From positions 726,416 through 790,415 of the forward strand of contig JBBCGY010000001.1 of assembly GCA_037200005.1 (NCBI GenBank): a DNA stretch of 64,000 nt. Reading direction: 5' to 3'. The position numbers and the translations under genes were made by a program. The notes below the pieces were generated by a model. The model saw nothing but the letters and a program-made list of their open reading frames with translations. It searched no databases and was not told the DNA's origin. The DNA comes from Alphaproteobacteria bacterium (GTDB taxonomy: Bacteria > Pseudomonadota > Alphaproteobacteria > UBA9219 > RFNS01). Position 1 is the first letter of the stretch. Each line of letters opens with the position of its first letter. Positions 36,700-38,357 of the stretch are shown one piece after another.

Positions 36700-36725
36700 A
36701 TTCTTGAAGTCTAAAATATGCATGG

Positions 36726-36752
36726 GGGCGGCTGGCGACAGCCGCCCTTTTT
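36726..36752 (+). terminator. Rho-independent terminator of the parvulin gene
   Basis: Stem GGGCGGCT / AGCCGCCC (36726-36733, 36740-36747), six-base loop, then TTTTT. It begins 27 bases after the parvulin stop. It also argues against starting mutT upstream of it. Confidence 0.88.
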
Positions 36753-37222: not shown

Positions 37223-37253
37223 TTGACAAGCGCCCCGCGCATTCTGTTATGCT
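37223..37253 (+). promoter_or_regulatory. Promoter of the Cys-codon leader
   Basis: Consensus -35 TTGACA (37223-37228) and -10 TATGCT (37248-37253), spacer 19 (18 if TTATGC is the -10). The predicted start falls at about 37260, the A of the leader-peptide ATG, so the leader would be translated from a leaderless transcript. Confidence 0.55.
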
Positions 37254-37259
37254 TGCGGC

Positions 37260-37301
37260 ATGAAATTCGTCCAACTCGCCTGTCTCTGTTGTTGCCGCTG
37301 A
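37260..37301 (+). CDS. Candidate cysteine-rich leader peptide (13 aa)
   Basis: The short frame ATG-...-TGA encodes MKFVQLACLCCCR with four Cys codons, three consecutive (TGT TGT TGC) just before the stop. It starts at the predicted transcription start and the Cys codons lie inside a large hairpin (37273-37340) followed by a T-run. This is the classic layout of a ribosome-controlled attenuator sensing charged tRNA-Cys. Too short to be proven from sequence alone; a chance frame remains possible. Confidence 0.4.
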   Translation: MKFVQLACLCCCR

Positions 37302-37345
37302 TTATTTAGTCTTCAGCCCCGGCAACCCTATCTGCGAGTTTTTTT
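37273..37345 (+). promoter_or_regulatory. Attenuator-like nested hairpin with T-run
   Basis: Outer stem AACTCGC / GCGAGTT (37273-37279 with 37334-37340), perfect 7 bp, immediately followed by T residues to 37345. Inner stem GTTGCCG / CGGCAAC (37291-37297 with 37320-37326), perfect 7 bp, extended by CTGA/TCAG (37298-37301, 37313-37316). Both left arms lie within the leader-peptide frame, so ribosome position would decide whether they pair. The next gene's ATG is 3 bases after the T-run. Alternatively it is the terminator of an 85-nt small RNA. Confidence 0.45.
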
Positions 37346-37348
37346 ATC

Positions 37349-37894
37349 ATGACAAACCGTGTTGTTTCCTTCGCCCCTCAGGCGAATGCCATTACCCGTC
37401 CGCTGTTTTCCGATAGACAGGCCGATCTCAAGAAAATGCTCAAGCTCGCCGCCGATCAAGGCGAATTGATCTATGACCGGCTGAAAGCGCTCGACGGCGC
37501 TGCGCGGCGCTTCCAGGCCGATCCCGGCCTCGCGGACGCGGATTTTGCGCGCGATGTTGCCCGCCTCGCCGTCGCCGATCCGGATATCGGCATCCGTCTC
37601 GGCGCGACGCATATCGTCGGCGAGATGGTCGAGGTTCTGCAGGGAGTCGTGATTGGGCCTCAAAGAAGCGATCATATGCTGGTGCGCCATGGCGCGATGC
37701 ATATGTTAGGCGTCCTGGCGGAAAACAGTCCGGAAAACGCCGAGCGCATTCGCGGCATCGCCGTCGAGGTCGCTGCGCGGGATGAACGGGTCAGCCTGGT
37801 AAGGCGCGAAGCCAACAGGATTTTGGGCATTTCCGATCGGCCCCCGCTTCGCCGCTCGCGCAACGCTATCCTTCCGCGCCCCCACGCGGTCTGA
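37349..37894 (+). CDS. Hypothetical helical protein behind the Cys leader
   Basis: 181 residues, unrecognised. Ala-rich, predicted almost entirely helical (KMLKLAADQGELIYDRLKAL; MLGVLAENSPENAERIRGIAVEVAA), giving a HEAT/ARM-like impression, with a basic C-terminal tail. No signal peptide, no cysteine. Its ATG follows the T-run of the upstream hairpin by 3 bases and there is no clear ribosome-binding site outside that hairpin, so expression probably depends on it. Similar in style to the proteins at 41269 and 42090. Confidence 0.55.
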   Translation: MTNRVVSFAPQANAITRPLFSDRQADLKKMLKLAADQGELIYDRLKALDGAARRFQADPGLADADFARDVARLAVADPDIGIRLGATHIVGEMVEVLQGVVIGPQRSDHMLVRHGAMHMLGVLAENSPENAERIRGIAVEVAARDERVSLVRREANRILGISDRPPLRRSRNAILPRPHAV

Positions 37895-37928: not shown

Positions 37929-38357
37929 CTAATTATAAAGCATGAATTTGCCCGCGATCTTGTCGAGCGCGTCGCGGTCGCCATGCGCCGCCGCGCCGAG
38001 ATAGCTCATCGTCTCTTCCTGTTGCGCGGCGATGGCGGCGGCAAGCTCGTCGTCATGGCCGGTGTCCTGCATTGCCTGCGGATAATCCACCAGCAGCAGG
38101 CCGGAAACCGCGCGCGCTTCGGCGATGAATTGCCGGAGCCGTCCGGGCTTCACCTTGGTGACAATCACCGGATATTTGGATATGCCGTGATGGCCGATGC
38201 CGCTTGCGTCCGGCAATAAATCGCGTCCCATGTCTTCGCGCGGCGCACGATGTCCAATGGAAAAAGCCAAATGTCCCATGACGTTAGCGGCTATTCCTGG
38301 AGCAAGATTGGAGGCCAGAACAATGACGGTTTTCCTGGCGCGGTAGTCATAGGTCAT
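37929..38357 (-). CDS. DUF2000 family protein
   Basis: 142 residues from ATG 38357, which overlaps the ruvX stop (ATGA). It matches DUF2000: TVIVLASNLAPGIAANVMGHLAF at the N-terminus, RDLLPDASGIGHHGISKYPVIV in the middle and VDYPQAM later. Structures of this family resemble peptidyl-tRNA hydrolase 2-like folds but the function is unknown. Much longer readings upstream are a shadow of ruvX. Confidence 0.82.
   Translation of the reverse strand: MTYDYRARKTVIVLASNLAPGIAANVMGHLAFSIGHRAPREDMGRDLLPDASGIGHHGISKYPVIVTKVKPGRLRQFIAEARAVSGLLLVDYPQAMQDTGHDDELAAAIAAQQEETMSYLGAAAHGDRDALDKIAGKFMLYN

Follow-up and report, generated by a model that had tools for sequence, protein, structure and literature searches.

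A candidate cysteinyl-tRNA-responsive attenuator with a predicted leaderless leader frame upstream of an orphan gene in an alphaproteobacterium

Attenuators built on a leader peptide rich in cysteine codons are already known in bacteria. In Rhodobacterales, the motif uORFC-8-2 precedes cysS and consists of a uORF with Cys codons and a U-run terminator, for which attenuation by Cys-tRNA has been proposed (PMC8632094). In mycobacteria, leaders with runs of Cys codons were predicted in 2005 upstream of cys operons, where no conserved terminator was found (PMC1262725). Canestrari et al. (2020), as cited in PMC9031893 and PMC9094748, reportedly identified mycobacterial leaderless polycysteine sORFs as cysteine-responsive attenuators, and translational attenuation of cysteine genes has been proposed for these sORFs (cited in PMC9031893 and PMC13236596). 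The element described here shares its design with these systems, and what is new is its orphan target.

The element lies in the window, i.e. the whole 64-kb stretch of DNA that was analysed, of a source genome of 2.36 Mb. The gene order at the locus is ppiC, mutT (NUDIX), the leader, a 181-aa gene, a DUF2000 gene and ruvX (both on the other strand) and finally two genes which we take to be gatC and gatA by sequence recognition. The promoter (37223-37253, plus strand) can be read directly and is composed of the -35 hexamer TTGACA at 37223-37228 (6/6 matches), a 19-nt spacer and the -10 hexamer TATGCT at 37248-37253 (4/6 matches). With 10/12 matches, it had been called a good promoter in the preliminary description; given the 19-nt spacer, this is a little generous. 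The leader ATG at 37260 follows the -10 hexamer after 6 nt, and no Shine-Dalgarno sequence precedes it; from this spacing, the ATG is predicted to form the 5' end of the transcript. Promoters at leaderless spacing also occur before long frames of the source genome, for instance before a 312-aa frame that we assume to be LipA-like (L165, G000:C2:99451-99490, plus strand) and before a 91-aa frame that we assume to be CsoR-like (L168, G000:C2:392197-392234, minus strand), both by sequence recognition.

The predicted leaderless frame (37260-37301, plus strand) reads MKFVQLACLCCCR* and has the codons ATG AAA TTC GTC CAA CTC GCC TGT CTC TGT TGT TGC CGC TGA, with the stop codon at 37299-37301. It is therefore indeed the 13-codon frame ending in C-L-C-C-C-R that had been noticed before. 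Its four Cys codons are located at 37281-37283 and 37287-37295, that is at codon 8 and, as a run close to the stop codon, at codons 10-12 of 13. Since CLCCC constitutes a thiol cluster, one could assume that the nascent peptide itself senses a metal or the redox state, as copper-responsive uORFs are said to do in other bacteria. However, a peptide of 13 residues remains in the ribosome tunnel and there are no metal genes nearby, so that we regard such a function as scarcely credible.

The frame is interlaced with a long hairpin. The outer stem P1 (37273-37340, plus strand) pairs AACTCGC at 37273-37279 with GCGAGTT at 37334-37340 by seven Watson-Crick pairs, and the region of the inner stem P2, inside which a 5-bp stem P3 is formed, extends from 37288 to 37326 on the same strand. 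In its perfect register, P2 pairs GTTGCCG at 37291-37297 with CGGCAAC at 37320-37326 (seven pairs). In the minimum-energy fold it is slipped by three bases and pairs 37288-37294 with 37320-37326, including two G-U pairs, which makes room for P3. Both of the perfect 7-bp stems that had been reported on the leader codons thus exist as pairings, but the second one is an alternative register to the minimum-energy fold. A run of seven T (37339-37345, plus strand) follows the outer stem and is separated from the ATG at 37349 only by ATC; the earlier reading of a T-run three bases before the gene is correct in this respect. The fold of 37260-37348 has an energy of -23.0 kcal/mol (z -3.95) and none of 200 shuffles was as good. 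Sequence and fold hence predict an intrinsic terminator between leader and gene, although P1 encloses a 54-nt loop, including an internal loop of 7-8 nt, and is no textbook terminator. A pattern scan of the window listed neither the promoter nor the terminator of the element, because it was confined to spacers of 16-18 nt and loops of 3-8 nt.

Promoter and terminator delimit a predicted RNA of 82-86 nt with a stable, rod-like fold, as would be expected of an independent trans-acting small RNA of about 85 nt. This explanation leaves the Cys codons unaccounted for, the RNA has no Rfam match and a covariance model of the leader found no convincing relative in 189 other genomes; we consider it very improbable. 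The one hit of that search, in G052 (E 0.008), sits over a 212-aa frame and was rejected.

With uORFC-8-2, the element has in common its alphaproteobacterial host, a short uORF with adjacent Cys codons in the first stem and a U-run terminator (PMC8632094). It differs in its target and in the placing of the codons: uORFC-8-2 invariably precedes cysS and mostly has its Cys codons at positions 14 and 15, whereas here an orphan gene follows and Cys is encoded by codons 8 and 10-12 of 13. In addition, the start is predicted to be leaderless, unlike that of uORFC-8-2. The mycobacterial polycysteine sORFs are cited as leaderless short ORFs with contiguous Cys codons that control the next gene, features that are predicted for the present locus, where the Cys run also lies close to the stop codon. 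However, the mycobacterial sORFs are cited as acting translationally on cysteine genes and no conserved terminator was found there (PMC1262725), while here a predicted intrinsic terminator stands before a gene without any link to sulfur. The element works like uORFC-8-2 and the mycobacterial sORFs, but fits either definition only in part.

We propose that the element is a ribosome-mediated, cysteinyl-tRNA-responsive transcription attenuator in which the stalled ribosome directly occludes the terminator, and assign a probability of roughly 0.6 to this reading. The transcript would begin with the A of the leader ATG or a neighbouring base, and its 5' AUG would serve a 70S ribosome as the site of initiation. 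If Cys-tRNA is ample, the ribosome should complete the leader and leave at the UGA, whereupon the long hairpin would close and RNA polymerase would stop at the U-run, three bases short of the orphan gene. If Cys-tRNA is short, the ribosome would stall at Cys codon 8, 10, 11 or 12, its footprint would lie over the P1 left arm (and that of P2) and, as no terminator could form, polymerase would read through into the gene.

The geometry of this switch was computed by masking the RNA with a 30-nt ribosome footprint. Whichever of the four Cys codons occupies the A site, the footprint hides the P1 left arm and the probability of P1 is zero. For a ribosome at Arg13 or at the stop codon, P1 is partially formed (0.13-0.23); once the stop codon has entered the A site, the P1 arm is just free and P1 stays at 0.17-0.23 until the ribosome leaves. 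On RNA free of ribosomes, the hairpin forms completely. The P1 left arm immediately precedes the Cys codons, as an occlusion switch requires. A stable antiterminator was sought in the masked folds, but none was found; with the leader masked, the start region (37262-37270) pairs only weakly (-3.9 kcal/mol) with the right arm of P1. The lack of a stable antiterminator makes direct occlusion by the stalled ribosome likelier than the trp design.

As in attenuators of the trp and his type, a codon-specific stall would decide on a terminator before the gene, and sequence and fold do place a terminator between leader and gene. Those attenuators possess an antiterminator that excludes the terminator, whereas here a stable one is missing and the ribosome would occlude the terminator arm itself. 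The trp-leader analogy of the preliminary description is therefore right in its logic but wrong in this detail. Its interpretation as an attenuator fits anatomy, chance estimates and masking, as well as the Cys leaders of similar layout before cysS in another family of the class, and is partly supported.

The same ribosome geometry would also serve translational attenuation, if the right arm (GCGAG, 37334-37338) hid a weak ribosome-binding site, since a GAG lies within the stem 10-12 nt before the ATG. A precedent is given by the mycobacterial leaderless Cys sORFs (cited in PMC9031893 and PMC13236596). However, the match to a Shine-Dalgarno sequence is weak and the run of seven T right after the stem marks an intrinsic terminator, which makes control at the level of translation rather improbable. 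Neither the reading of the sequence nor the pattern scan revealed a promoter-like site between the terminator and the ATG at 37349. Since, moreover, the U-run ends three bases ahead of the gene, a full transcript of the annotated gene has to cross the terminator.

For the estimation of chance, we used the 726 short ATG frames (8-30 codons) of the 64-kb window. Seven of them contain at least four Cys codons, so that Cys-rich short frames as such are not rare. A promoter of at least 9/12 matches at leaderless spacing precedes two of the 726 frames, and a stem of 7 bp or more that reaches into the frame and stands before a T-run was found for 37 (5%). The combination of such a promoter (9/12 or better) with such a terminator stem, or with at least three Cys codons, is restricted to this leader. 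In 60 dinucleotide shuffles, four or more Cys codons coincided with a promoter of 9/12 or better in 0.017 frames per window even when no hairpin was required, and 0.32 short ATG frames per window attained the promoter score of the leader (10/12). Adding the hairpin would lower the expectation to roughly 0.001 frames per window, a product of independent rates with thresholds chosen after the feature had been seen, and hence a guide and not a test. For the source genome as a whole, counts were derived from pattern searches and from the 64-kb window. TGT accounts for three of the four Cys codons of the leader and for 24% (38/161) of the Cys codons in the long frames of the window; as evidence, this share is weak at best. 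Overall, an origin by chance is unlikely, because four Cys codons coincide with promoter, stem and T-run.

The main rival to the attenuator combines two assumptions, namely that the mutT transcription unit simply ends at the hairpin as its intrinsic terminator, the Cys frame being accidental, and that the downstream frame either is no gene or has another promoter and a start further inside. The U-run lies 130 nt beyond the end of mutT (37206), and no other terminator-like site was listed after this gene, the only one in the scan (36724-36749) preceding mutT; the seven Cys-rich short frames in the window also show how common these are by chance. However, an ordinary mutT terminator explains neither the near-consensus promoter at exactly leaderless spacing nor why the stem arm is placed just ahead of the Cys codons. 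Regarding the second assumption, the downstream frame lacks relatives and its antisense strand has nearly the same codon usage (0.334 compared with 0.365 bits per codon), but the antisense frame is broken by a stop, while the frame itself (37349-37894, plus strand) resembles the neighbouring genes in codon usage (0.36-0.51). We therefore judge this rival unlikely, albeit by no means negligible.

The 181-aa frame, presumably a gene that starts at 37349, encodes a product that contains neither Cys nor Trp; the lack of Cys speaks for the attenuator reading. No relative of the gene or of the leader was detected in 58 near genomes and 384 genomes of the class, nor one of the gene in viral contigs, phages and plasmids. 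Searches against Pfam, NCBIfam, PHROGs and PADLOC gave no significant family, in agreement with the earlier statement that no role of the gene in sulfur metabolism is known, and no relative was found among solved structures. Peptide patterns of the product matched once in 84,980 species genomes, in a Ruminococcus MAG; this match is spurious, since it is local and falls on the beginning of a 270-aa frame that is unrelated and stands beside an AAA-type restriction-like gene. A single-sequence structure model is all-helical, which is weak evidence at a mean pLDDT of 62.8, and a fold search with this model returned weak matches to HEAT/ARM-like helical repeats, none with an E-value below 0.09. cysE would have been an ideal target of the attenuator, but the NCBIfam match has an E-value of only 0.028 and was rejected, because CysE is a beta-helix whereas the model consists of helices throughout. 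A Pfam match to S37 peptidases (E 0.026) is as weak as that to cysE and was rejected as well.

In two genomes of the same family (G001 and G002), mutT is directly followed by ruvX and gatC, and the leader, the stems, the 181-aa gene and the DUF2000 gene are absent. This arrangement suggests that leader and gene were either gained jointly as an extra segment of the lineage or lost jointly elsewhere. The DUF2000 gene (37929-38354), which overlaps the 3' end of ruvX, belongs to this extra segment, as do the leader and the orphan gene. Apart from the leader, the pattern CxCCCR* does not occur in the source genome; its matches in G007 and G016, two other genomes of the order, and in viruses are no leader frames. 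The collections searched offer no comparative support for conservation of the Cys codons and stems at this locus. The source genome also contains three exact copies of TGCTGCTGCCGGTGA (G000:C1:1277753-1282101), spaced by 2.1-2.2 kb, which suggests a tandem gene or domain repeat.

The main weakness of our interpretation is that it concerns a single locus without relatives, and the non-textbook terminator stem, the lack of an antiterminator, the 19-nt spacer, a gene without a link to sulfur and the absence of a comparable Cys leader at the scorable cysS loci of the order also count against an attenuator. Nevertheless, we regard the element as real and coherent and a Cys-tRNA attenuator as its most likely function. 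The more specific picture, in which plain occlusion from a leaderless frame controls a lineage-specific, Cys-free, helical-repeat-like protein, is tentative and somewhat short of an even chance. If it holds true, signalling of cysteine starvation by leader peptides extends to orphan genes, and ribosome occlusion from a leaderless frame can control a terminator without an antiterminator. The element would then be a minimal attenuator of about 85 nt, leaderless and antiterminator-free, and cysteine limitation would be the sole functional clue to the 181-aa orphan gene.

A class-wide pattern search yielded a leader MILYKFNICCCCCCR* before cysS in G219, and its other matches were chance occurrences inside genes. 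In family f71, whose genomes have about 0.6-1.1 Mb, a Cys leader precedes cysS in 15 of 19 loci (L113/L145, L128, L131, L132, L134, L135, L137, L138, L140, L144, L148, L150-L153), for example MTIRFINFYCCR*, MNTTFFNLCCCC* and MILYKFNICCCCCCR*. These leaders lie about 105-135 nt upstream of cysS, and 11 of the 15 combine a promoter scoring 8/12 or better with an ATG 6-9 nt past the -10 hexamer and lack a Shine-Dalgarno sequence; in the A+T-rich DNA of f71, however, about 5-7% of random positions reach 8/12, so that the weaker promoters are individually unconvincing. A conserved GCAAAC/GTTTGC hairpin is located 3' of the leader stop codon. The f71 leaders resemble the present element in their form M...CC(C)(R)*, the mostly leaderless spacing and the hairpin that follows, but their target is cysS and their hairpin lies past the stop codon, while here the hairpin spans the frame. 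They represent an independent, conserved case of the leaderless Cys-leader layout in the same assigned class and are distinct from the published motif of Rhodobacterales. Together with our element, if it is indeed an attenuator, they suggest that leaderless Cys leaders occur more widely than the one published alphaproteobacterial motif.

Within the order of the source genome, a comparable Cys leader was found at none of 27 scorable cysS loci. The cysS of the source genome itself (G000:C2:532579-533479) lies away from the element and has no CC leader. This cysS (L077, L079) is divided between two frames that overlap, one of which contains a TGA; this might be an assembly error or a real lesion. 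A further leader, MTPMRKSILCCCR*, was observed at G234:C1:962020-962061 on the minus strand (L110, 1940-1981 on the reverse complement). It has a GGAG upstream, precedes two small ORFs and a MetN-looking ABC ATPase, and is a candidate Cys attenuator.
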